Shown piece after piece: positions 31,320-50,824 of a stretch of DNA of 64,000 bases. The stretch spans positions 62,001 through 126,000 of the forward strand of contig JAICQO010000007.1 in assembly GCA_025937835.1 (NCBI GenBank), in the 5' to 3' direction. The notes under the pieces were generated by a model. It ran no database searches, had not been told where the DNA came from, and saw nothing but the letters and a program-made list of their open reading frames with translations. The position numbers and the translations under genes are program-made. Numbering within the stretch: position 1 is the first letter of the stretch; each line of letters starts with the position of its first letter. This stretch comes from Polyangiaceae bacterium. Its GTDB lineage: Bacteria; Myxococcota_A; Polyangia; Polyangiales; Polyangiaceae.

Positions 31320-32288
31320 ATGGAAGAGGACGCGATCAAGGTCTCGCCCACGAGCACGGAGCTCGCGGAAGCGACGCCGAGCGGCCCCGAACCGCCGTGG
31401 CGCCGCCGCCCGCTCGAGGCCTATGCCGAGCTCGCGCTCGAATGGTTGATCCGGCTGTGCGGCGTGAGCGCGATCCTGTTCGTGTTCGGGATCTTCTTCT
31501 TCGTGTTCCGCGAGGGCGCGGGCATGCTGTTCGGAAAGCTGGATCTGCTACGCTTTCTGTTCACGAAGGAGTGGTATCCGACCTCGCTCAGCAACGTGCG
31601 CTACGGCGTGCTGGCGCTGATCATCGGCACCGGCAGCGTGACCGTGCTGGCGATGGCGATCGCCGTCCCGTTCGGGCTCGGCGCCGCGATCTTCGTCTCC
31701 GAGTTCTGCAGCGGCCGCGTCAAGGAGACCCTCAAGATCGTGATCGAGCTGCTCGCCGCGATCCCCTCCGTGGTCTGGGGTTTCATCGGCATTTCGGTGA
31801 TGAACCCGCTGATCCAGGAGCTGTTCGACGCCAGCATCGGCCTGAACGTGTTGAACGGCGCGCTGCTGCTCGCGCTGATGAGCGTGCCGATCATGGTCAG
31901 CATCGGCGAGGACGCCTTGAAGGCCGTGCCCGACTCGCACCGTGAGGCCGCGCTCGCGCTCGGCTCCACGCGCTGGCAGACCATCTACCGCGTGCTCTTG
32001 CCGTCGGCGAAGAACGGCCTGTTGGCGGCGGTGTTGCTGGGAGTGGGCCGGGCCGTCGGCGAGACGATGGCGGTGTTGATGGCGACCGGCCACTCCTTGA
32101 ACATCCCGCGCAGCGTGCTCGACCCGGTGCGCACGCTCACGGCGACGATCGCCGCCGAGCTCGGCGAGGCGTCGGTCGGGTCCGACCACTATCAGGTGCT
32201 GTTCGTGATCGGCATTCTGCTGTTCACCATCACCTTCTTCGTGAATCTCGCAGCTGACCTCGTGGTCAAGGGGATCAAGAAGCAATGA
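31320..32288 (+). CDS. pstC: Phosphate ABC transporter permease PstC
   Basis: A 322-residue permease with about six helices and the BPD_transp_1 EAA loop REAALALGSTRWQTIYRVLLPSA. The core IELLAAIPSVVWGFIGI and GRAVGETMAVLMATG are typical of PstC. An acidic N-terminal cytoplasmic stretch of about 40 residues precedes helix 1. It overlaps pstA by 4 bp. Confidence 0.95.
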   Translation: MEEDAIKVSPTSTELAEATPSGPEPPWRRRPLEAYAELALEWLIRLCGVSAILFVFGIFFFVFREGAGMLFGKLDLLRFLFTKEWYPTSLSNVRYGVLALIIGTGSVTVLAMAIAVPFGLGAAIFVSEFCSGRVKETLKIVIELLAAIPSVVWGFIGISVMNPLIQELFDASIGLNVLNGALLLALMSVPIMVSIGEDALKAVPDSHREAALALGSTRWQTIYRVLLPSAKNGLLAAVLLGVGRAVGETMAVLMATGHSLNIPRSVLDPVRTLTATIAAELGEASVGSDHYQVLFVIGILLFTITFFVNLAADLVVKGIKKQ

Positions 32289-33175
32289 CCACCTTCGCCG
32301 AGACCCCGTTCGTGCGCGCCAGAAAGCGCAACGAGCTTTTCGCGAAGCTCGTGTTCGGCGCGATGGCGGCGCTGCTCGTGACGCCGCTGTTGTCGATCGT
32401 GGCTTACCTGGTGATCCAGGGCGCGCCGCTCTTGTCGCTGGATTTTTTGGTCTCGAACCCGTCGAACGGGATGCGGGCGGGGGGGATCTGGTCCGCGCTG
32501 CTCGGCACGATCTACCTCGTGACCCTGTCCCTGTTGATCGCCGCGCCGATCGGCGTGCTGGCGGCTGTCTATCTGAACGAATACGCCGAAGACAACTGGT
32601 TCACGCGCGTGATCAACCTCGCGGTCGTGAACCTGGCGGGCGTGCCCAGCATCGTGCACGCGCTGTTCGGCCTCGGCGCCTTCGTGCTGGCAGCGGGCAT
32701 CGGGCGCTCGGTGCTCGCGGCGTCGCTGACGCTGTCGATCATGACGCTGCCCGTGATCATCGCCAGCACCAAGGAGGCGCTCTCGTCCGTCCCCCGCGCG
32801 TTCCGCGAGGCGTGCTGGAACGTCGGCGCCACGCGCTGGCAAACGATCCGCGGCATCGTCCTGCCGAACTCGGTGAGTGGGATCCTGACCGGCGTGATCC
32901 TGCAGGTTTCCCGCAGCGCGGGCGAAACGGCCCCGGTGATGTTCACGGGTGCGATCTTCTTCCGGCCCATCCCCGAGGGCGACCCCTTCGCCTATTCGAT
33001 CTTCGACCAGTGCATGGCGCTGTCGATGCATCTGTTTTCAGTGACGACCCAGGTCAACGGCGCGCCGCCCGCCCTGCCCTACGCGACGGCGGTGGTGCTG
33101 CTGGGCACCGTATTGGCCGTGAACGCCACCGCCATCGGCCTGCGCGTGTACCTGCGGTCGAGGAAGAAGTGGTGA
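32285..33175 (+). CDS. pstA: Phosphate ABC transporter permease PstA
   Basis: A 296-residue permease partner of PstC, with six helices and the EAA loop REACWNVGATRWQTIRGIVLP. The segment NLAGVPSIVHALFGLG and the conserved RSAGETAPVMFTGAIFF identify PstA. Its ATG overlaps pstC and its stop overlaps the GTG of the first pstB. Confidence 0.95.
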   Translation: MTTFAETPFVRARKRNELFAKLVFGAMAALLVTPLLSIVAYLVIQGAPLLSLDFLVSNPSNGMRAGGIWSALLGTIYLVTLSLLIAAPIGVLAAVYLNEYAEDNWFTRVINLAVVNLAGVPSIVHALFGLGAFVLAAGIGRSVLAASLTLSIMTLPVIIASTKEALSSVPRAFREACWNVGATRWQTIRGIVLPNSVSGILTGVILQVSRSAGETAPVMFTGAIFFRPIPEGDPFAYSIFDQCMALSMHLFSVTTQVNGAPPALPYATAVVLLGTVLAVNATAIGLRVYLRSRKKW

Positions 33176-33954
33176 GCGGCTTGGTCAGCGCGAGCGCGCC
33201 CCCGCCCAAGATCGAGGTCTCCGGCCTCGAGCTCTACTACGGCAAGAAGCGCGCGATCCACGGCATCTCCTTCGAGGTGAAAGCGCACGAGATCTTCGCG
33301 GTGATCGGCCCCGCGCAGTCCGGCAAGAGCAGCTTGCTCCGCTGCCTGAACCGCACCATCGAGTTCGTCCCCGGCGCGCAAATTCGCGGAAAAATCGCGG
33401 TAGACGGCCAGGACACGGCGCGCGTGAAGAACGTGTTCGAGCTCAGGCGGCGGATCGGCATGGTCGCTCCCCTGCCCGTCGGGTTGCCGCTCAGCATTCA
33501 CGACAACGTGGCGTTCGCTCCGCGCGCCGCCGGCCTTCGTGATCCGAAGAAGCTCGAGGAGCTGGTCGAGCGCTGCTTGCGCCAGGCCGCGCTCTGGGAC
33601 GAGGTCAAAGATCGGCTGCACAGCCTCGGCACCAAGCTCTCCGGTGGACAACAGCAGCGCTTGACGATCGCGCGCGCTCTCTCGCACCGGCCCGAGATCC
33701 TCTGCCTCGACGAGTTTTCGATCGCGATCGACCCCGTGACCACGATGCGCATCGAGGACGTGCTCAAGGAGCTGCGTCGCGAGATGACGATCGTGCTGGT
33801 CACGAACTTGGTCCAGCAAGCGCGCAGGCTCGCCGATCGCACGCTCTTCCTGTGGAACGGCGAGGTCGTCGAGTGCGACCGAAATGACGTGATTTTCTCG
33901 GAAAAACCCGGAAATCGGAAGACCTACGAGTACGTGAACGGAACGTTCGGATGA
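33172..33954 (+). CDS. pstB: PstB-like ATPase 1 (keeps LSGGQ, lacks switch His and Q-loop Gln)
   Basis: A 260-residue phosphate-transporter ATPase. Walker A is GPAQSGKSS (46-54, Lys52), the signature LSGGQ is intact (156-160) and Walker B is ILCLDE (Asp180, Glu181). The switch histidine is Asn212 (VTNLVQQA in place of VTHN) and the Q-loop Gln is replaced by Pro100 (MVAP in place of MVFQ). It overlaps the second ATPase by 4 bp. Together with ATPase 2 it is predicted to form a heterodimer whose ATP site built on its own Walker motifs is degenerate. Confidence 0.93.
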   Translation: MSGLVSASAPPPKIEVSGLELYYGKKRAIHGISFEVKAHEIFAVIGPAQSGKSSLLRCLNRTIEFVPGAQIRGKIAVDGQDTARVKNVFELRRRIGMVAPLPVGLPLSIHDNVAFAPRAAGLRDPKKLEELVERCLRQAALWDEVKDRLHSLGTKLSGGQQQRLTIARALSHRPEILCLDEFSIAIDPVTTMRIEDVLKELRREMTIVLVTNLVQQARRLADRTLFLWNGEVVECDRNDVIFSEKPGNRKTYEYVNGTFG

Positions 33955-34736
33955 CTCTCCCCGCTCGCGCCGCCCAGGGCGGCATCACCACTCGCGAGCT
34001 CAGCCTCTGGTACGGCGACTTTCAGGCCCTGAAAAGCGTCACGCTGACTCTCCAGCATGGCCTGATCACTTCACTGATCGGCCCGTCTGGTTGCGGCAAG
34101 ACCACGCTGCTCCGCTGCTTCAACCGCGTGAACGAGCGTTACGGCTACGTCACGACCCGCGGCGAGATCAAGATCCTCGACAAGAACATCTACGACGAGG
34201 ACGTCTCGCTCGAGGAGCTCCGGCGCCTGGTCGGCATGGTGTTCCAGCGCCCGAACCCGCTGCCGCTCTCGGTCTACGAGAACGTGGTGTACGGCCTGCG
34301 TATCCACAGTCCGCGCCGCGATCTCTCCAAATCGAGGCTCGACGAGGCAGTCGAGCGGTCGCTGCGCGAGGTCGGTCTGTGGGACGATCTCAAGGACCGG
34401 CTCGGGGCCAGGGCCACGGGCCTCCAGCTCGAGCAGCAGCAAAAGCTGTGCATCGCGCGGCTCCTGCCGATGAAACCCGAGGTGATCCTGATGGATGAGC
34501 CCTGTTCGGCGCTCGACGTCGAGGGCACGCGGGCCATCGAAGAGCTGATGTGGACTCTGCGGGGGAAATATACGATCGTGATCGTCACCCACAACATGGC
34601 TCAAGCCCGGCGCGCCAGCGACGAGTGCGTGTTCATGCTGCTCGGTGAAATCATCGAGCACCGGCGCACGGAAGATCTGTTCCTGCATCCGCGCGACCCG
34701 CGTACCGCCGAATACATCGAGGGCCGCTACGGCTGA
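33951..34736 (+). CDS. pstB: PstB-like ATPase 2 (keeps switch His, degenerate LSGGQ)
   Basis: A 261-residue phosphate-transporter ATPase with canonical Walker A (GPSGCGKTT), Q-loop Gln99 (MVFQ), Walker B (VILMDEP) and switch His214 (VTHNMAQA). The signature position reads LQLEQ (158-162) instead of LSGGQ, followed by QQKLCIAR, so alignment there is unambiguous. The defects are complementary to those of the preceding gene. It is followed in the same direction by the S66 peptidase. Confidence 0.93.
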   Translation: MTLPARAAQGGITTRELSLWYGDFQALKSVTLTLQHGLITSLIGPSGCGKTTLLRCFNRVNERYGYVTTRGEIKILDKNIYDEDVSLEELRRLVGMVFQRPNPLPLSVYENVVYGLRIHSPRRDLSKSRLDEAVERSLREVGLWDDLKDRLGARATGLQLEQQQKLCIARLLPMKPEVILMDEPCSALDVEGTRAIEELMWTLRGKYTIVIVTHNMAQARRASDECVFMLLGEIIEHRRTEDLFLHPRDPRTAEYIEGRYG

Positions 34737-41526: not shown

Positions 41527-41685
41527 GAATCCGACGGGAGCTGCTGGAAAAGCGTGTAGTTACCAGAGGATGAGCCGGAATCGGCGTCAATTCCCCCTAC
41601 ATCCGCGGGAGGAGTGGGAGTTCTGTCCTCGCTGGAAATGCTGGCAAATCGCTCGCCGATCCCTGCTATCCTCGGCCACCCTCGG

Positions 41686-43227
41686 ATGACGCTTCCCCAG
41701 CAACATCTCGCCACCCCCCTCCCCGTCGGCGCCAGCGTGCACGCCGGCTCACTCCGCGCGCGCATGGAAGAGCTGCGTGGCCGTGGGGGCCGCCTGAACC
41801 TCCAGCAAGCAGTCGGCATCATCGTGCCGCTGTGCGTTCAGGCCGCCGAGCTCTCACGCAGCGGCCAGGTCTTATTCATTCACCCGTCGTCGCTGGTGGA
41901 GGACCCGAGCGGCTTCTTCCGCGTGAGCCCGGAGCTCGCGAGAAATCCGCCGATCTTGCCGCGAGACCGCGCGTGTCTCGCGCCCGAGGCGCGCTCGGGG
42001 AAAGCCACCGGTGCTCGCGCCAGCGTCTTCGCGATCGGCGCCATTCTCTACGAGTTGCTCACCGAGCAATCGGTGGGGCCGGGCATGCGCCGGCCGAGCG
42101 AGCTGATGCCGGGTTTGCCCCACGCGCTCGAGGTCGTGCTGTCGAAGGCTCTGGTAGCAGACCCGGCTCATCGCCCGGACGATCTGCTGGCGCTCGCTCA
42201 GGCGCTGCATCAGTTCGCCCCACCCGGCTCGGTGGCGCCGCCACCCCCGGCAGATGTGACCCACCTCGATCACGACGGCGGCTTCGACGTCGACGTTTCG
42301 ATGTCGATGCTGCCGCCCGAGCCGGTGGGCCCGCTGCCGAGCGTGCGGCAGAACCCGGTCCAGAGCTCCAAGCGCGGCGCCGGCAAGCCCGACGCCACGA
42401 GCGAGCTCGCCTCGCTCAAGGCGCGGCTCGAGAGCGACCCCCGCCCTCGCTATGTCGTCGTGAAGGACGGCATGGATCACGGCCCGTTCAACGCGGTCGA
42501 GCTCCTGCAGCAGATCGCCAACCACACCTTCCACGATTCGGACGTCGTGCGCGACACGCTCAGCAACGAGGAACGTCCGATCCGCGACTGGGACGAGTTC
42601 GCGCCGTTCGCCGAGCACGCCAAGCTGCACCGCGAGATCAAGGCCGAGAAGGACGCGATCCACCGCGTCGTCGCCCAGGAAAACCGCAGCACCCGCGGCA
42701 AGGCGCTGATCGGGCTGTTGCTCGTCGGCAGCGTGTTGATCGCGGCGGGCATCTGGTTCTTGACTGATCTCGGCCGCAAGAACGACGAGGTGGCGGTCGT
42801 GGGCGAGAGCGCTCAGAACGTCGAGGTCGACGCGGGGCTCGACACGTCGAAGCTCAAAAAAGGCGGCGGCCGCCGGGTAATTGGCAAGAGCGGCGGCATC
42901 CCGATCCTGGGCGGCGGCATGAGCTGCGAGGGCGCCCAGGCCGCGTACGTCGAGGAAATGAACGTCGGCGGGCCCCGCGGTCAGGCCGACATCACGGCCA
43001 GCCAGTACTCGTCGGTGCTGAATCGCGGCTCGTACTTCGGGCACTGCGGCGTGCCGGACTCGATGGGCGTCAATATCTGCGCGGCCGTGCAGAACGGGCG
43101 CGCGGTCGGTGTGACCGTCAGCACGCGGCCCCCCGATCGCCGCGCGCAGTCGTGCATCGCGGCCGCCGTGCGCGGCCTGCGCTTCCCGAGCAATCCCAAG
43201 CTCGACGTCACGCGCACGCAATTCTGA
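41686..43227 (+). CDS. Pseudokinase-GYF-transmembrane-AgmX/TonB-like protein
   Basis: The 513-residue protein has three parts. Residues 25-185 resemble the C-lobe of a Ser/Thr kinase: VLFIHPSSLVEDPSGFF where HRDLKPxN should be, CLAPEAR in the APE position and FAIGAILYELLT; the HRD and DFG catalytic residues are missing. Residues about 245-305 look like a GYF_2 domain (DGMDHGPFNAVELLQQI). A transmembrane helix (about 345-365) is followed by a Cys-containing C-terminal domain like that of AgmX/PglI and TonB. AgmX relatives work in myxobacterial gliding. A regulatory role is inference. Confidence 0.75.
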   Translation: MTLPQQHLATPLPVGASVHAGSLRARMEELRGRGGRLNLQQAVGIIVPLCVQAAELSRSGQVLFIHPSSLVEDPSGFFRVSPELARNPPILPRDRACLAPEARSGKATGARASVFAIGAILYELLTEQSVGPGMRRPSELMPGLPHALEVVLSKALVADPAHRPDDLLALAQALHQFAPPGSVAPPPPADVTHLDHDGGFDVDVSMSMLPPEPVGPLPSVRQNPVQSSKRGAGKPDATSELASLKARLESDPRPRYVVVKDGMDHGPFNAVELLQQIANHTFHDSDVVRDTLSNEERPIRDWDEFAPFAEHAKLHREIKAEKDAIHRVVAQENRSTRGKALIGLLLVGSVLIAAGIWFLTDLGRKNDEVAVVGESAQNVEVDAGLDTSKLKKGGGRRVIGKSGGIPILGGGMSCEGAQAAYVEEMNVGGPRGQADITASQYSSVLNRGSYFGHCGVPDSMGVNICAAVQNGRAVGVTVSTRPPDRRAQSCIAAAVRGLRFPSNPKLDVTRTQF

Positions 43228-43251: not shown

Positions 43252-44046
43252 GTGGCCGCGGAACCTGGAGGATCTCGGCGCTCGGGTGCGCGCTGGCTCG
43301 CCGCTTGGATATGCGCGGCGAGCACGGCGTGTAGCGTGCCGATCGCGCAAAACCTGGACGAGGCGGACGCCAATCAAGCGGTGGTCGTGCTCGAGCGAGC
43401 CAGCGTCGGCGCGACGAAAGAGCGCGACCCGGAGCGCGAAGGGCGCTTCCAGGTCAGCGTCTCACGGCAGGAGTCATCGACGGCGATCGCCCTGCTCGCC
43501 CGCGAGAACCTGCCGCCGCGCTCGAGCCCCGGCGTGCTCGAGGCGCTCGGAGAGTCGTCGGTCGTGCCGAGCCGCCTCGCCGAGCACGCGAAGTGGAGCG
43601 CCGGCATCGCGGGCGATCTCGAGCGCTCGCTGCGCGGCATCGATGGCGTGTTGTCGGCTCGCGTGCACCTCGGCGTGCCGGCCGAGGACCGGCTGGATCT
43701 CGACGAATCCGCGCCCAAGCCGACCGCGGCGGTGTTGCTCCGCTACCGCGGCGCGGCGCCGCCCGTCGCCTCCGCCGAGGTGCAACGGCTCGTGGGCGGA
43801 GCCGTGCCCGGCCTCGCTCCGGAGCAGGTGAACGTGGTGCAGGTGTCGAGCGCCTGGCCCGGTTCGCCCGAGTCGAGCCTGATGCAGCTCGGCCCGATCA
43901 GCCTGACGCGCGGCTCGGCCGGCGCGTTCCGCTGGATCGTCGCGGCCGTCGCGCTTTTGGCGCTCGGCCTGCTCGGGGGGCTGATCGCCTTGTGGGCGCG
44001 GCTACGCCGGGCCGAGGCCGCGCTGTCGAAGAGCCGCGTTGATTGA
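43252..44046 (+). CDS. sctJ: Orphan type III secretion ring lipoprotein (SctJ/YscJ-like)
   Basis: The 264-residue protein has a lipobox ending at Cys27 (ASTAC), then YscJ/FliF-type sequence: LDEADANQAVVVLERASVGA, LERSLRGIDGVLSARVHLGV and LVGGAVPGLAPEQVNVVQV, and a C-terminal transmembrane helix (RWIVAAVALLALGLLGGLI). SctJ forms the inner-membrane ring of the injectisome. No other type III genes lie in the window. The stop overlaps the TTG start of an Mla-type ATPase by 8 bp, so the two are translationally linked. Confidence 0.85.
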   Translation: MAAEPGGSRRSGARWLAAWICAASTACSVPIAQNLDEADANQAVVVLERASVGATKERDPEREGRFQVSVSRQESSTAIALLARENLPPRSSPGVLEALGESSVVPSRLAEHAKWSAGIAGDLERSLRGIDGVLSARVHLGVPAEDRLDLDESAPKPTAAVLLRYRGAAPPVASAEVQRLVGGAVPGLAPEQVNVVQVSSAWPGSPESSLMQLGPISLTRGSAGAFRWIVAAVALLALGLLGGLIALWARLRRAEAALSKSRVD

Positions 44047-44773
44047 GCTCGAGGGCGTCCACAAGAGCTTCGATCGCCCGGTGCTCGCCGGCGTTGACCT
44101 GGTCGTCCCGAAGGGTTGCCTGTACGCGCTGCTCGGACCGCCGGCAGCCGGAAAAAGCCTGATTTTGAAGCTCGTGAGCGGGCTCTTGCGCCCCGATCGC
44201 GGGCGGATCCGCGTCGCGGAGCGCGAGATCGAAGCGCTGACCGAGATCGAGCTCGCCGATTACCGCCGCGGCGTCGGCATGGTGTTCCAGAACAACGCGC
44301 TCTTCGATTTTCTGACCGTGCGCGAGAACGTGGCCTTCCCGCTGCGCCGCCTGTTCCAGCTGCCCGAGCGCGAGATCGAGCGCCGCGTGGCCGAGCGGCT
44401 CTCGCGGGTCGGGCTCGAAGGCCTCGAAGCGCGCTTGCCGTCCGAGCTGTCCGGCGGGCAGAAAAAACGCGTCGCGCTGGCGCGCGCCACGGTGTCCGGG
44501 GCGCCCGTCGTGCTCTACGACGAGCCCGCCGCGGGCCTCGATCCCGTGACCAGCCAGCGCATCTTCGAGCTCTTGCGCGCCGAGCACCAAGCCGCGGGGG
44601 CGACCGCGATCATGGTCTCGAGCGACGTCGATCGGCTGCTCAGCGTGGCCGACCGAGTGGGCATGCTGCACGACGGCCAGCTCGTCTTCGACGGCACCAA
44701 CGCCGAGGCGCGCGCTACGAGGGAGCCAGTGGTGAGGCAGTATCTCGACGGGGGGCTCGAAGGGCCGCTGTGA
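44039..44773 (+). CDS. Mla-type ABC ATPase 1 (keeps LSGGQ, switch His replaced by Ser)
   Basis: The 244-residue ATPase has Walker A GPPAAGKS, Q-loop MVFQNNALFDFLTVRENVAFP as in MlaF, signature LSGGQ (137-141) and Walker B VVLYDEPAAGLDP. At the switch the sequence is VSSDVDRLLSVAD where MlaF has VSHD, so the His is Ser195. It starts at TTG 44039, overlapping sctJ. It is separated from the other Mla genes by two minus-strand genes, but its defects complement those of ATPase 2 at 49062. A partnership is inference. Confidence 0.9.
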   Translation: MIELEGVHKSFDRPVLAGVDLVVPKGCLYALLGPPAAGKSLILKLVSGLLRPDRGRIRVAEREIEALTEIELADYRRGVGMVFQNNALFDFLTVRENVAFPLRRLFQLPEREIERRVAERLSRVGLEGLEARLPSELSGGQKKRVALARATVSGAPVVLYDEPAAGLDPVTSQRIFELLRAEHQAAGATAIMVSSDVDRLLSVADRVGMLHDGQLVFDGTNAEARATREPVVRQYLDGGLEGPL

Positions 44774-44848
44774 CGCTGCGCGCGTCGCACGGCGCAGCGC
44801 TCGTTCGCCACGACTTTTAGCGTCCTGGTGCAGTGATCGGGCAAGTGC

Positions 44849-46174
44849 CTAATCCTCGTCCAAGGGCGGCGGGATCGAATCGCCCGGTGGGCGCGGCCAG
44901 ATCCGAACTTTGACGACCCGGCGCTCGGTCGCTTCTTCCACTTCCAGGCGCGCGCCGCTCGGCGCGGTGAAGGAGTCGCCGACGCGGGGAACTCGGCCGG
45001 CCAGTGAGGTGATGAAGCCGCCGACGGTCGACCACTCTCCCGTGTCCGGCAGCTCGAAATCTGCCTTGCGGTTCAGGTCGCGGATCGTGGTGTCACCGGG
45101 AGCTGCCAGCGAGCCGTCCGACAGCTCCTTTAGAGGTTGAGCGCTCGGGCGGACCGTCTCGCTGAAGGTCTCTCCGAGCAGCTCTTCGGCCAGATCCTCG
45201 ACCGTGACGATGCCCGAGGTGCCGCCGTGCTCGTCGACCACGATCGCTAGCGGGATCCGCTTCTGGCGCATGTTCTGGAGCAGCGCCGAAGCGGGCATCG
45301 TCTCGGTCACGAAGTACGGAGGGCGTATCAGATCCTGCAGGACCACGAGCTGTCCGCTCCAGGCCAGCGCCAGCATGTCCTTGACGAGCACGTAGCCGGC
45401 AGTGTCGTCGAGGTCTTCGCGGTACACCGGGTAGCGCGAATATCCATGCTCGAGGGTGATCTCTTTCACCTCTTCGGCGGTCGAGTCGATCTGAATCGCG
45501 ACCACGCGCGTGCGCGGCACCATCACGTCCACCGCGGTGAGCTCGGAGAACTCGATCGCGCGCTCCGCCATCTCACTCGTGGTCGCGTCGAGCGAGCCCG
45601 CCTCCGCGGCCTCGTCGAGCAGCTGATAGAGCTCGCCCTTGGACACCCGGCTCTCGGAAAAGGTGGTTTTATCGCCGAACAGCCAGAGCACGGCGTTCGA
45701 GCAGCTCGTCAAAAACCAGACCAGGGGGCGCGCCACGGCCGACAGCACCATCAGCGGGCGCGCCATGAACAGCGAGTAACCCTCGGCGTGGCGCAGCGCG
45801 AGGGACTTGGGTACGAGCTCGCCCGCGATCAACGACAGGAACGACAGACCGCTCACGATCAGTACCAAGCTGACGCTCTGCGCGTGCTCGCCGATCCACG
45901 GCACCTTGGCGAGTATCGGCGCGAAATGACTCGCGAAGCGCGCGCCGCCGAAGGCACCCGCCGTGGCTCCGAACACCGTGATCCCGATTTGCACGGTCGC
46001 AAAGAAGCGCTCGGGATGGGTGCGCAGCTCGTAAACGGCGCGCGCTCGCCGATCACGGCGGTCGACCAAGTGCTTGAGTCGCATCTTGTCGAATCCGACG
46101 ATCGCGATCTCCGCCCCTGCGAGCACGCCATTCGCGATGACGAGCCCGAACAGGATCGCGAGTTCCCAGAGCAT
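44849..46174 (-). CDS. HlyC/CorC (CNNM-type) membrane protein with CBS domains
   Basis: The 441-residue protein starts with a CNNM/DUF21 membrane domain of four helices (about 1-190), including [23 protein letters not shown]. It has a pair of CBS domains (about 205-330) containing [11 protein letters not shown] and [16 protein letters not shown], and a C-terminal transporter-associated domain (about 345-430). Such proteins take part in Mg2+/Co2+ efflux or homeostasis. ATG 46174 gives the normal N-terminal helix; a longer in-frame start adds unlikely sequence. Confidence 0.9.
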
Positions 46175-46233
46175 GGACGCAGGATGTTGGGGGATCGGCG
46201 CCCGCAAGCCAAGCGAACGCTTATTCCCGCAAT

Positions 46234-47343
46234 TCAGCCGCTTTTGGCGCGCCGGCCGCCCTGCCGGAGCTCGTTCTGCACACGCTGGAAACCCTCAGTG
46301 TCGAGCGGCAAGTCGATCGGCCCCTCGCGCAGGCTCGACCAGAGCACCGCATTCGCGAGCTCGACGGCGTTCCGAGCCTGATCCGCGGGGGCAAGCAGCC
46401 GCGCTTCCCCGCGGATCGCCTGGACGAAATTCCCCAGCACCGGCGCTGTCGTGCGCTCTTCCGGGGGGAACACCACGCGCTCGACCTCGGCTCGCGGCCG
46501 GCCGCTCGCCTCACGGCGGCGGAAATCCCTCACCGACTCCCGGGTGCGGTGGACGGTCGCGGTGTCGCCCTCGAGCACGAGTTGGCCGCGGTCGGCCGAG
46601 ATTTCGAGCCGGGAGCTGCCGGGGGCCTCACCCGTCGAAGCCACGAGCAGCGCAGTCATGCCCGACGCGAACTCGAAATGCGCCGTCATGTCGTCCTCCA
46701 CCTCGATCTCGTGGAAGCGCCCGAATCGGCAGATGCCGAACACGCGCCGCGGCATGCCGAACAGCCAGGAGAGCGTGTCGAACAGGTGCGGCGCCTGATT
46801 CACGAGCAGCCCGCCGCCCTCGCGAGCGAAGCTGCCCCGCCACGGGCTCTCGGCGTAGTAGGCCTCGGTGCGGAAAAAGTTCGTGGCTTGCCAGACCACG
46901 CGCTCGACGCGGCCGAGCTCACCGCGCCGCAGCAACGAAGCAATCCAGCGAAAACGCGGGTCGGCCCGGTGGTCATGCACGACGCCGAACAGCGGCCGCA
47001 ATGGCCCGAGCTCGGAGTAAGCCTGCAACGTCAGGTCACACCGGCCAGCCTCGACCCCGAGCGGCTTCTCGACCAGCACGTGCCGGCCTGACCGCAGCGC
47101 GAGCTCGGCCAGGGCGAGGTGCGACAGATGCGGGGTCGCGATCACGACCGCCTCGACTCCCGGCGCGACCACCAGCTCCTCCGCCGAGAGCGGGGGTGCG
47201 TCGAGGCCTTCGACGCGAGCGGGATCCAGGTCGGAAACCGCCGCCAGCCGCGCGCCTTCGACGGCGCCGCTCTGCAAGGCGCGCGCGTGTCGAGCCCCCG
47301 CATGGCCGATGCCAATCACGCCTACGCCGAGGGTTTTGCTCAC
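46234..47343 (-). CDS. Gfo/Idh/MocA-family oxidoreductase
   Basis: The 369-residue protein opens with LGVGVIGIGHAGARHARAL, a GxGxxG-type Rossmann fold, and has AVVIATPHLSHLALAELAL and HVLVEKPLGVEAG, the family signature with its EKP motif. The second domain has YYAESPWRG and LLVNQAPHLFDTLSWL. It is an NAD(P)-dependent sugar-type dehydrogenase of unknown substrate. GTG 47343 is taken as start because upstream in-frame sequence would overlap the mlaE promoter region and lacks family similarity. Confidence 0.88.
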   Translation of the reverse strand: MSKTLGVGVIGIGHAGARHARALQSGAVEGARLAAVSDLDPARVEGLDAPPLSAEELVVAPGVEAVVIATPHLSHLALAELALRSGRHVLVEKPLGVEAGRCDLTLQAYSELGPLRPLFGVVHDHRADPRFRWIASLLRRGELGRVERVVWQATNFFRTEAYYAESPWRGSFAREGGGLLVNQAPHLFDTLSWLFGMPRRVFGICRFGRFHEIEVEDDMTAHFEFASGMTALLVASTGEAPGSSRLEISADRGQLVLEGDTATVHRTRESVRDFRRREASGRPRAEVERVVFPPEERTTAPVLGNFVQAIRGEARLLAPADQARNAVELANAVLWSSLREGPIDLPLDTEGFQRVQNELRQGGRRAKSG

Positions 47344-47428
47344 GAGGGGCGCGAAACCTACACCGATTTTCCGAGCAAAGGTCGCAAAAAAGTTGAAAAG
47401 ACGGCCGGAGAGCGGGACACACGGGTCA

Positions 47429-48217
47429 GTGCCGGAAGCCGCCACCAGAGCACCGCTCGCCGCGCTCGGCCGGGCCGCGGCTTCCGTCGTGGGCCTGGTC
47501 GGTCAGATCGCCCTGCTCGGCCGGCAGATGCTGAGCTCGCTCCGGCGCGGCCAGCTCGACCGCACCGAGCTCGTCCGGCAGCTCTACAAGATGGGCTGGC
47601 AGAGCCTGCCCGTCGTCGCCGCCACGGCGCTCTTTACCGGCGGCATCATGGTGATCCAGGCCGCGCCGATCGTGCAGCGTTACGGGGCGCACGGCTTGCT
47701 CGGATGGGGCGCGGGCTTCGGTACGCTGCGCGAGATCGGCCCGCTGCTCACGGCGCTGATGATCTCCGGCCGCGTCGGCGCCAACAACACCGCCGAGCTC
47801 GGCACGATGGCGGTCACCGAGCAGATCGACGGTCTGCGCGCGCTCGCGATCGACCCCTTCGGTTACCTGGTCTTGCCGCGGTTTCTGGCGATCATCGCGT
47901 CGGCCTTCTTCGCCACCGTGGTCGCGGACGCGCTCGCGCTGGTGGGCGCGGCCTACGCCGGCTCGTGGCTGCTCGGCGTCGAGCCGGGACTGTTCTATTC
48001 CGGCCTCACGAGCGGCTTGCTCGGGTTTTCGGACGTGGCCCACGGCCTGATCAAGAGCGTGGTGTTCGGCGGGCTGATCGCGCTGTCCAGTTGCCACCAC
48101 GGCATCACCACGCAGGGCGGAGCACCGGGGGTGGGCCGGAGCGTGAACGCCACCGTCGTCACCAGCGCCGCGGCCATCTTCGGCGCGGATTACCTGCTCT
48201 CGTTCGTGATCCAATGA
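47429..48217 (+). CDS. Mla-type lipid ABC permease 1 (MlaE family)
   Basis: The 262-residue permease has the MlaE pattern: QSLPVVAATALFTGGIMVIQ, GTLREIGPLLTALMISGRVG, AELGTMAVTEQIDGLRALAIDP and a C-terminal KSVVFGGLIALSSCHHGITT. It moves phospholipids between the membranes with the ATPase and the MCE protein. It starts at GTG 47429 and overlaps permease 2 by 4 bp. Confidence 0.93.
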   Translation: MPEAATRAPLAALGRAAASVVGLVGQIALLGRQMLSSLRRGQLDRTELVRQLYKMGWQSLPVVAATALFTGGIMVIQAAPIVQRYGAHGLLGWGAGFGTLREIGPLLTALMISGRVGANNTAELGTMAVTEQIDGLRALAIDPFGYLVLPRFLAIIASAFFATVVADALALVGAAYAGSWLLGVEPGLFYSGLTSGLLGFSDVAHGLIKSVVFGGLIALSSCHHGITTQGGAPGVGRSVNATVVTSAAAIFGADYLLSFVIQ

Positions 48218-49065
48218 CGGACCCCGGCCCCGACGAGCCGCTCGAGCACGAGCCGAGCCTGCCTCCCCCGCCCCGGCGCGCAGAGCTCGGCCGGCTCGGC
48301 GAGGCCGCGATCGCCTCGATTTTGGCCGCGCGCGACACCTACGGCCTGTTCGTGCGCTCGCTCTATTACACCGTCCGCGGGCGGCGCGAGCCGGGAGCGG
48401 TGGTGCGGCAGATGTACGAGATCGGCAACCGCTCGCTGGTCTTCGTGTGCATCGTGATGGGCTTCATCGGGATGATCCTGGTTTACCAGGGAGGGTTACA
48501 GACCAAGCGCGTGGTGCCTGATCTGTCGCAGCTCGGAGCTACGTTCCTCGAGGTCCTGGTGCGCGATCTGGGCGCCTCGATTTGCGCGCTGATGCTGGCG
48601 ACGCGTGTCGGCGCCGGCATCGCCGCCGAGCTCGGCTCGATGGCGGTGACCGAGCAGCTCGACGCGCTCCGGCTGTGCGCGGCCGACCCCGTCGATTATC
48701 TGGTAAAACCGCGGTTTTTGGCGTCAGTCGTGATGGTGCTGGTGCTGACCGTGATCTCGAGCAGCGCGGCCTACGCGACCGGCATGTTCGGGGCTCAGCT
48801 GTTCTTCGGCATCAACCCCCGCACCTTCGTGAATTTCGCGCTCGTCGATGCGGTCGACGTCGCGACGGGCCTCACCAAGTGCATCGCCTACGGCGCAGCC
48901 ATCCCGTTGATCAGCGCCCAGGCCGGGTTCGCCGCGACGCGCGGCTCGGAGGGCGTCGGAACCGCGACCACGCATGCCGTCGTGCGCTCGTCGCTGGCCG
49001 TGATCGCGCTCGATTTTCTGATCAGCGGCGCGTTCTGGGTGGCGTTCGGGGACGGCTCCGAGTGA
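48214..49065 (+). CDS. Mla-type lipid ABC permease 2 (MlaE family)
   Basis: A second MlaE-type permease of 283 residues: MYEIGNRSLVFVCIVMGF, VLVRDLGASICALMLATRVG, AELGSMAVTEQLDALRLCAADP and LTKCIAYGAAIPLISAQAGF. A 40-residue Pro/Glu-rich N-terminal extension precedes the domain. It is clearly paralogous to the gene before it, so a heterodimeric permease is likely. It overlaps ATPase 2 by 4 bp. Confidence 0.93.
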   Translation: MTDPGPDEPLEHEPSLPPPPRRAELGRLGEAAIASILAARDTYGLFVRSLYYTVRGRREPGAVVRQMYEIGNRSLVFVCIVMGFIGMILVYQGGLQTKRVVPDLSQLGATFLEVLVRDLGASICALMLATRVGAGIAAELGSMAVTEQLDALRLCAADPVDYLVKPRFLASVVMVLVLTVISSSAAYATGMFGAQLFFGINPRTFVNFALVDAVDVATGLTKCIAYGAAIPLISAQAGFAATRGSEGVGTATTHAVVRSSLAVIALDFLISGAFWVAFGDGSE

Positions 49066-49805
49066 TCGCGTTTCGCGGTATTTCGAAGGCGTTCGGCGAG
49101 CGGCGGATCCTCGACGACGTGAGCTTCGAGGCCGAGCGCGGCGAGATCTTGTTCGTGATCGGCGCCTCGGGGGTGGGCAAGAGCGTGCTCATCAAACAAG
49201 TCGTCGGCTTCATTCGCCCGGACAGGGGCCGGATCCTGGTCGACGGCGAGGACGTGACCGACTTCGAAGAGCGCGACTTCGCGCGGATCCGCAAGCGCTG
49301 CGCGATGGTCTTCCAGCACGCCACCTTGTTCGACGCCATGACCTGCGTCGAAAACGTGGCGCTGCCGCTCGCCAAGCACCGCCGGCTCGACCAGAGGCAA
49401 GCGCTGTCGGAGGCCCGAGCGCTGCTCGCGCGGGTCCACGTCGAAGCCTTCGCCGAGCGTTACCCCGGCGAGCTCGGGGACGGCCTGCGCAAGCGCGTGG
49501 CGATCGCCCGCGCCCTTTCGCTCGAGCCCGAGGTGATCCTGTTCGACGAGCCCACCACCGGCCTCGACCCCGTCAACGCGCGCCGCGTGGACCGGCTGAT
49601 CGCCGAGCTCTCCGAGAAGGCCCGTGTCACGAGCCTCGTCGTGTCCCACGATTTGACGTCGATTTTCACGATCGCGCACCGAATCGTGATGCTGTACAAG
49701 GGTAAGGTGCGGTTGATCGGGAGCCCGGAAGACTTTCGCCAGAGCACCGACGCCGTGGTCCGCCAGTTCGTCCGCGGCGAAGCCCAGGGTCCTTTCGAGA
49801 CATGA
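49062..49805 (+). CDS. Mla-type ABC ATPase 2 (keeps switch His, degenerate signature)
   Basis: The 247-residue ATPase has Walker A GASGVGKS, Q-loop MVFQHATLFDAMTCVENVALP, Walker B VILFDEPTTGLDP and switch His196 (VVSHDLTSIF). The signature position reads LGDGL (138-142) where LSGGQ or LSGGM is expected, followed by RKRVAIARAL. It therefore mirrors PstB-like ATPase 2 in this window. The GTG start overlaps the preceding stop and the stop overlaps the MCE gene. Confidence 0.92.
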   Translation: MIAFRGISKAFGERRILDDVSFEAERGEILFVIGASGVGKSVLIKQVVGFIRPDRGRILVDGEDVTDFEERDFARIRKRCAMVFQHATLFDAMTCVENVALPLAKHRRLDQRQALSEARALLARVHVEAFAERYPGELGDGLRKRVAIARALSLEPEVILFDEPTTGLDPVNARRVDRLIAELSEKARVTSLVVSHDLTSIFTIAHRIVMLYKGKVRLIGSPEDFRQSTDAVVRQFVRGEAQGPFET

Positions 49806-50824
49806 GCCAGCGCTCCATCGAGGTCAAAGTCGGGGCGTTGATCCTGGTGGCGCTCGGGTTGCTCGGCGCGTTCGTGGTGGTGATGGGCGGGCTCAGCTTC
49901 GAGCCGGCCATGACGGTCAACGTGAGCTTTCAGAACCCGGGCGGCCTGCAAACGGGCGCACCCGTGCGTATCTCGGGGGTCAAGGTCGGGCGCGTCTCCG
50001 CGATCGAGTTCCGCGGCGGCAAGCTCGATCCGGCGACGGGCAAGCCCGAGCCGGTGATCCGCGCGGTGGCCGAGATCGAAAAGCGCTACAGCGACGCGAT
50101 CCGCCAGGATTCTCGCTGGTTCGTCACGAGCCAGGGCGTGCTCGGCGAGATGTTCCTGGCGATCGAGCCGGGGCCGCCCGACCGGCCTCCGCTCGCTGAC
50201 GGCGCCGTGGTCCAGGGCATCAGCCCTCCCCGGCTCGATCTGCTGCTGGCCGAGAGCTACGAGCTCCTTCACCGCGCGTACGTGGGGATCACCAACAACG
50301 AGCAGAAGATCCAGGAGACCTTCGACGGCCTGCACCGAACGCTGCGCGCGAGCGGCAATTTCTTCGAGCGCAACGAGCCCAAGCTGAACGGCATGATCGA
50401 CGACCTGTCGGCGCTCGGCGGGGAGACGCGCGACACGTTGAAGGCGGCCCGCGAACGCTACGTGGACGGCCCGCAAGTGCAGCGGATCCTGAACGACATC
50501 GAGCGCACGGCGCAGTCCACGAGTCAGACGCTCCCGCCGCTGCTCGAAGACAGCCGCAAATTCGTGACCGATGCGCAGCGCTTGACGGCGGCGCTCGCGA
50601 GCGAAGGCCAAATCGAGCGCTACAAGGCGATCACCAAGGACGTGGCCGACGCCGCGGGCGTCGCGAAATCCGCTGCAAACGACGCCAAAGCCGTCGTCAG
50701 CCAGGTCCGGCAGGGCAAGGGCACGCTCGGCGCTCTGGCCATGGACGAGGCCGTCTACGACGACCTTCAGGAACTACTGCGCGACCTCAAACACAACCCC
50801 TGGAAGTTCTTCTGGCGCCAGTAG
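49802..50824 (+). CDS. MlaD/MCE-domain lipid transport protein
   Basis: The 340-residue protein has an N-terminal transmembrane helix (VGALILVALGLLGAFVVVMG), an MCE domain (about 38-130) beginning VNVSFQNPGGLQTGAPVRISG, and a long C-terminal helical region (about 150-330). It forms the periplasmic lipid-binding ring or needle of an Mla-type transporter. The long helical region is longer than in E. coli MlaD and resembles other extended MCE proteins. It ends 8 bp before a convergent gene. Confidence 0.93.
   Translation: MSQRSIEVKVGALILVALGLLGAFVVVMGGLSFEPAMTVNVSFQNPGGLQTGAPVRISGVKVGRVSAIEFRGGKLDPATGKPEPVIRAVAEIEKRYSDAIRQDSRWFVTSQGVLGEMFLAIEPGPPDRPPLADGAVVQGISPPRLDLLLAESYELLHRAYVGITNNEQKIQETFDGLHRTLRASGNFFERNEPKLNGMIDDLSALGGETRDTLKAARERYVDGPQVQRILNDIERTAQSTSQTLPPLLEDSRKFVTDAQRLTAALASEGQIERYKAITKDVADAAGVAKSAANDAKAVVSQVRQGKGTLGALAMDEAVYDDLQELLRDLKHNPWKFFWRQ

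Follow-up and report, generated by a model that had tools for sequence, protein, structure and literature searches.

How does an ABC transporter work when each of its two candidate ATPases lacks a different part of the catalytic machinery? The question is raised by a locus in a stretch of 64,000 nucleotides from a Polyangiaceae bacterium (hereafter the window), where two Mla-type ATPase genes, called here ATPA and ATPB, lie 4.3 kb apart. A first-pass annotation had reported this distance, a complementary split of motifs between the two proteins and two paralogous permeases beside the second one. It had proposed a single ATPase heterodimer on a heterodimeric permease. The ORFs bear out the distance, and both permeases proved to belong to the MlaE family (PF02405). 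The locus contains the following features (positions in the window):

43252-44046, + strand: SctJ/YscJ-like lipoprotein, type III secretion inner-membrane ring family (TIGR02544 123 bits, PF01514 71.5 bits)
44039-44773, + strand: ATPA, Mla-type ABC ATPase (TTG start, 244 aa)
44849-46207, - strand: CBS-domain membrane protein, between ATPA and the permease operon
46234-47445, - strand: oxidoreductase, between ATPA and the permease operon
47309-48217, + strand: PERM1, MlaE-family permease, first paralogue (PF02405 221 bits, cut-off 22.5)
about 48214-49065, + strand: PERM2, MlaE-family permease, second paralogue (PF02405 187 bits, cut-off 22.5)
49062-49805, + strand: ATPB, Mla-type ABC ATPase (GTG start, 247 aa)
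49802-50824, + strand: MCE (MlaD-like) protein, 340 aa (PF02470 62.6 bits, cut-off 25.1; TIGR00996 75.6 bits)

A 4-bp overlap is found at every junction of PERM1-PERM2-ATPB-MCE, which suggests a single translationally coupled operon. The translation of PERM2 begins with a Met at 48214, its ATG lying in the 4-bp overlap with the end of PERM1. The true start of PERM1 is probably downstream of the annotated one, since the annotated ORF overlaps the minus-strand oxidoreductase gene. The MCE protein consists of one MCE domain plus a C-terminal extension. No STAS (MlaB) gene was seen adjoining the ATPases or the permeases at the locus.

ATPA possesses a Walker A (GPPAAGKS), a Q-loop (FQNNALFD), an LSGGQ signature (138-142) and a Walker B (VVLYDEP, Glu162). 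Its switch reads MVSSDV (Ser194-Ser195-Asp196), with Ser195 in place of the switch His. ATPB possesses a Walker A (GASGVGKS), a Q-loop (FQHATLFD), a Walker B (VILFDEP, Glu163) and a switch with its His (VVSHDL, His196), and its signature is degenerate (LGDGL, 138-142). Both are stand-alone ATPases of the MlaF/MceG group, and ATPases from solved MCE transporters (MlaF, MceG) are among their closest PDB matches. In the alignment to chains 7d06/6z5u, Ser195 falls on the switch His and LGDGL on LSGGM. The complementary split described by the first-pass annotation was thus recovered both in the ORF motifs and against solved chains. MlaF (PRK11831) is the top NCBIfam model for both proteins, with scores of 179 and 190 bits that are well under its curated equivalog cut-off (441 bits), so neither was filed as MlaF itself.

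The ATP sites of ABC ATPases are composite: one subunit provides Walker A, Walker B and the switch His, the other the signature (PMC7756269). In an ATPA-ATPB dimer, both lesions would therefore fall in site 1 (ATPA core with ATPB signature), which would bind ATP with little or no hydrolysis. Site 2 (Walker A, Glu163 and His196 of ATPB with LSGGQ of ATPA) would be canonical and would drive transport. A homodimer of either protein would have two defective sites. As the function of MlaF depends on the Lys of Walker A and the Glu of Walker B (PMC7367683), and as the sites are composite, an ATPB homodimer would be impaired at both sites, and an ATPA homodimer catalytically deficient at both. In our main reading, the locus very probably codes for an ABC lipid transporter of type VIII (MCE/Mla family), which combines a permease heterodimer with an obligate ATPase heterodimer and an MCE ring. 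Site 1 would retain its ATP, and lipid is the substrate expected from the family. The gene order suggests that PERM1 pairs with ATPA and PERM2 with ATPB.

Genomes with the ATPB operon and no ATPA homologue had been named beforehand as what would refute the proposal. To look for them, 290 genomes of the class were scanned with profiles of ATPA (A3) and ATPB (A4); the best scores formed two groups and the thresholds were set by eye. The raw table gave 163 genomes with both genes, 13 with ATPA only, 8 with ATPB only and 106 with neither. After resolution by hand of the fragments at contig edges and removal of one false ATPA, both genes were present in 170 genomes and neither in 105, while 7 had ATPA only and 8 ATPB only. 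All of these 15 discordant genomes, including the 8 with ATPB only, are draft assemblies. Among the genomes in 10 contigs or fewer, 17 out of 17 were concordant (11 with both, 6 with neither). The Fisher test gave a P of about 1e-60, which is uncorrected for phylogeny and merely indicative, given the thresholds set by eye, the hand-transcribed table and the relatedness of the genomes.

Several apparent absences were rejected as genes cut at contig ends: that of ATPA in G001 and G270, and that of ATPB in G171, G145, G203, G239, G048, G086 and G214. Conversely, the ATPA match of G106 was taken for the canonical paralogue (seen as L193), and G106 was recoded as lacking ATPA. ATPB has no ATPA nearby in 22 genomes, and a loss of ATPA in all of them was also rejected: 18 were over the ATPA threshold and 17 of these have a true ATPA, the match of G314 (L193) being canonical. 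The ATPA of G315 (L195) scored under the threshold. With the ATPA profile, no ATPA was found in 4 of the 22 (G295, G298, G309 and G314). At the phylum level, this profile at E 1e-84 also catches canonical paralogues (G399, G355, G459, G324, G499), and the count of 98/237 was thus not used as a prevalence.

We also compared the locus with that of relatives. Orthologues of ATPB (63-69% identity) are present in five of the seven other genomes of the genus (G001, G002, G003, G006, G007), with a conserved gene order. In four of the five, the contig also carries ATPA (60-61%), upstream and on the same strand, at about 33 bp from PERM1 in G007; the ATPA of G001 is truncated by the contig end. The two remaining genomes (G004 and G005) possess canonical paralogues only. 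In the six ATPB-bearing genomes of the genus, the window's included, the ATPB signature is LGDGM, LGDGL or LGEGM, always with SHD, and ATPA combines LSGGQ with SSD (STE in G001). A wider reading covered 80 named contigs and regions from further genomes. The common order in Myxococcota, on one strand, is ATPA-PERM1-PERM2-ATPB-MCE (e.g. L082, L084, L087, L097, L099). From L108 to L112 the order from ATPA to ATPB is the same and no MCE gene was detected. The nearest relatives outside Myxococcota, mostly of Desulfobacterota type and Geobacter, possess a single permease and a single ATPase, which is canonical.

Since ATPA and PERM1 are contiguous in G007 and in many other Myxococcota, their separation in the window is a derived state. 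It results from genes that came to sit within the operon, which runs uninterrupted in many relatives. The earlier proposal that ATPA is supplied from a separate transcript therefore stands for this genome, where two minus-strand genes intervene, and not as a general feature of the system. In Sorangium-type genomes (G275, G272, G249, G194, G244), 160-510 kb separate ATPA from ATPB and both genes are kept. Their ATPA has LSGGQ and SSD, and the ATPB of L072 has LGDGM and SHD; L072 is Sorangium cellulosum So0157-2, with which the ATPB coordinates of G275 agree.

Such distances, the separate ATPA transcript of the window and three further MlaE permeases carried by the host genome outside the window could also fit an ATPB homodimer with a relaxed signature (LGDGM), ATPA being a regulator or a part of another transporter. 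However, both signatures of this homodimer would be broken, and the intact LSGGQ of ATPA would be catalytically useless unless paired with a core bearing Glu and His. Moreover, the canonical paralogues of the same genomes keep all motifs and so need no such partner. Given in addition the strict co-occurrence of the two genes and their single operon in many genomes, we consider the ATPB homodimer very improbable. Co-occurrence and operon structure indirectly support an ATPase heterodimer on a heterodimeric permease, and we infer from sequence the physical pairing of ATPA with ATPB.

Another insertion into the operon is present elsewhere in the genus. PERM2 and ATPB are there separated by a cysteine-rich, lipoprotein-like gene in antisense orientation, which bears CCYGWC/CCYSWC motifs:

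L036, 7746-8429, - strand: CCYGWC/CCYSWC gene
L037, 2144-2797, + strand: CCYGWC/CCYSWC gene
L038, 10927-11622, - strand: CCYGWC/CCYSWC gene
L039, 5530-6198, + strand: CCYGWC/CCYSWC gene

To census the lesions, we used distinct sequences: 94 of the ATPA clade, 90 complete and 4 partial of the ATPB clade, and 53 other Mla-like ATPases. These sequences are phylogenetically related and the counts are not independent events. None of the 94 ATPA is intact: the switch His is lost in 73 and the catalytic Glu in 21. The His losses comprise 71 SSD with the Glu kept, one STE and one SSD plus Asp, while the 21 others show Glu->Asp with the His kept, one among them with LAGGL. Each of the 90 complete ATPB has a non-SGG signature with intact DEP and SHD. 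Canonical motifs are found in 52 of the 53 other ATPases, the exception (L195, DDP plus SSD) being a divergent ATPA from the same genome as L113, whose ATPB signature is LGPGL. Fixed in both clades and absent from 52 of the 53 others, the split is beyond chance.

The type of lesion depends on the lineage. His->Ser is found in the class of the window and Glu->Asp with the His kept in other classes; among the sequences read, every true ATPA from families of the phylum outside the class of the window is of the Glu->Asp type. Both changes are present together in L087 and L195. The same composite site is therefore hit through different residues according to the lineage, which matches the prediction of selection for one dead site. 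In every ATPA covering the region, the Walker A GK[ST] is conserved, and nucleotide binding is thus presumably retained; the Q-loop is also kept.

Could these lesions be mere drift in a decaying transporter? The branches are longer in ATPA than in ATPB, which would fit such decay. Nevertheless, the dN/dS of the two ATPases (about 0.07 and 0.05, G002 vs. G006) indicates strong purifying selection on both, ATPA keeps its Walker A and Q-loop, and the system persists over a phylum with lesions limited to one composite site. We give practically no credence to drift. Chance or a pseudogene was likewise rejected from the motif conservation and a dN/dS well below 1.

A milder alternative accepts the ATPA-ATPB pair and supposes that site 1 still hydrolyses ATP slowly, the asymmetry being only modulatory. 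His->Ser alone need not end hydrolysis in every ABC protein. Moreover, slow hydrolysis persists at human ABC sites with Glu->Asp (PMC7756269). However, the core and the signature of the same composite site are both changed in every lineage read, and we regard slow hydrolysis as rather unlikely, although it deserves more weight than the other alternatives.

In a quick tree search, ATPA (29 rows) and ATPB (28 rows) each formed one clade (SH-aLRT 100). The two permeases also formed one clade each (SH-aLRT 99 for PERM1 and 100 for PERM2), in parallel with the two ATPase clades. The Glu->Asp type is the deepest ATPA branch of this ATPase tree. The branch holding the ATPB set was poorly supported (0.38) in a larger FastTree, which was used only for sorting the census sequences.

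Three known systems resemble the locus. The MlaFEDB of E. coli, Acinetobacter and Pseudomonas shares with it an MlaE-family permease, an MCE (MlaD) protein and an MlaF-like stand-alone ATPase. In these systems, MlaF and MlaE each form a homodimer, the motifs are canonical and MlaB is present (PMC7367683, PMC10094684), whereas the locus encodes two permeases that differ from each other and two ATPases with complementary defects (244 and 247 aa). The homodimeric canonical ATPase of Mla sensu stricto is thus replaced by two paralogues with complementary lesions. The mycobacterial Mce1 (YrbE1A/YrbE1B, MceG) also combines a permease heterodimer with an MCE assembly. Its MceG is a homodimer (PMC9882608) and its ring contains six different MCE proteins, whereas this type of locus usually has one or two MCE genes and, instead of a single homodimeric MceG-type ATPase, two ATPase clades that each carry a lesion. 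Finally, one degenerate and one canonical composite site are found in heterodimeric ABC exporters (TM287/288, BmrCD, TAP1/2, TmrAB) and also in ABCG5/G8 and Pdr5 (PMC7756269). In such exporters the signature is broken in one NBD and the Walker B Glu and/or the H-loop His is lost in the other (PMC7756269). The locus shows the same pattern, with the signature altered in ATPB, the H-loop His lost in ATPA and the other composite site canonical. These exporters have exporter folds with NBD and TMD fused, whereas the NBDs of the locus are stand-alone subunits on separate MlaE-type permeases.

The same split had been noted in a PstB pair of the window, and the motifs of both ATPases agree with it:

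32245-33951 (C-terminal part), + strand: first PstB-type ATPase (LSGGQ; Asn for the switch His, TNLVQQ; Walker B LDEF)
33888-34733, + strand: second PstB-type ATPase (THN, MDEP; signature LQLEQQQ)

This pair (32245-34733) is likely to form a heterodimeric phosphate-transporter motor.

Our searches of the open-access literature found no MCE system with a heterodimeric or degenerate ATPase. New here are the extent of the pattern over the phylum, the alternative Glu->Asp lesion, the finding of a single operon in many relatives and the retention of both genes where they are unlinked. It is likely that these loci represent a Myxococcota-wide class of MCE lipid transporters with an obligate asymmetric motor (one ATP-burning and one ATP-holding site) and asymmetric permeases. 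This class would be the first type VIII system with a degenerate site, the dead site being reached via alternative lesions (His->Ser or Glu->Asp). The claim, which is drawn from sequences, is supported at that level. Most work on degenerate ATP sites concerns ABC proteins that carry NBD and TMD on the same chain. With its separate NBDs, its asymmetric permeases and a natural series of lesions spanning the phylum, an MCE transporter of this kind would allow testing what a dead ATP site does, and whether the direction in which lipids move between the two membranes is set by the asymmetry. Annotation is also affected: a transporter may have its two ATPase genes hundreds of kilobases apart, so surveys requiring synteny would count half a motor.

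Other observations concern the neighbourhood. Two consecutive MCE genes, instead of one, follow or lie near ATPB in L095, L098, L103, L104, L105 and L106, which suggests a mixed MCE ring in these lineages. A Myxococcota-type ATPB-MCE locus was also found in L093, a metagenome-assembled genome titled Klebsiella pneumoniae, which is probably a mislabel. The last 8 bp of the SctJ-like gene are also the first 8 bp of ATPA, and the two genes are thus probably co-transcribed; we treat this gene as a neighbour and do not claim it as a transporter component. The same neighbour precedes ATPA in several further Polyangiaceae-like genomes, and the adjacency was found again in other Myxococcota (L058, L060, L061, L063, L065, L068, L078, L087, L094, L126). 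In the genome of the window, PF01514 matches only the SctJ-like gene and a flagellar FliF-like one, and FHIPEP matches an SctV-like protein on C177, second to an FlhA-like one on C36. Further upstream, the product of 41614-43227 (+ strand) shows a weak similarity to PASTA-type kinases (NF033483), with a GYF-like stretch and a transmembrane helix. Its position before ATPA is conserved in Sorangium-type genomes too, although ATPA and the rest of the operon are not linked there.
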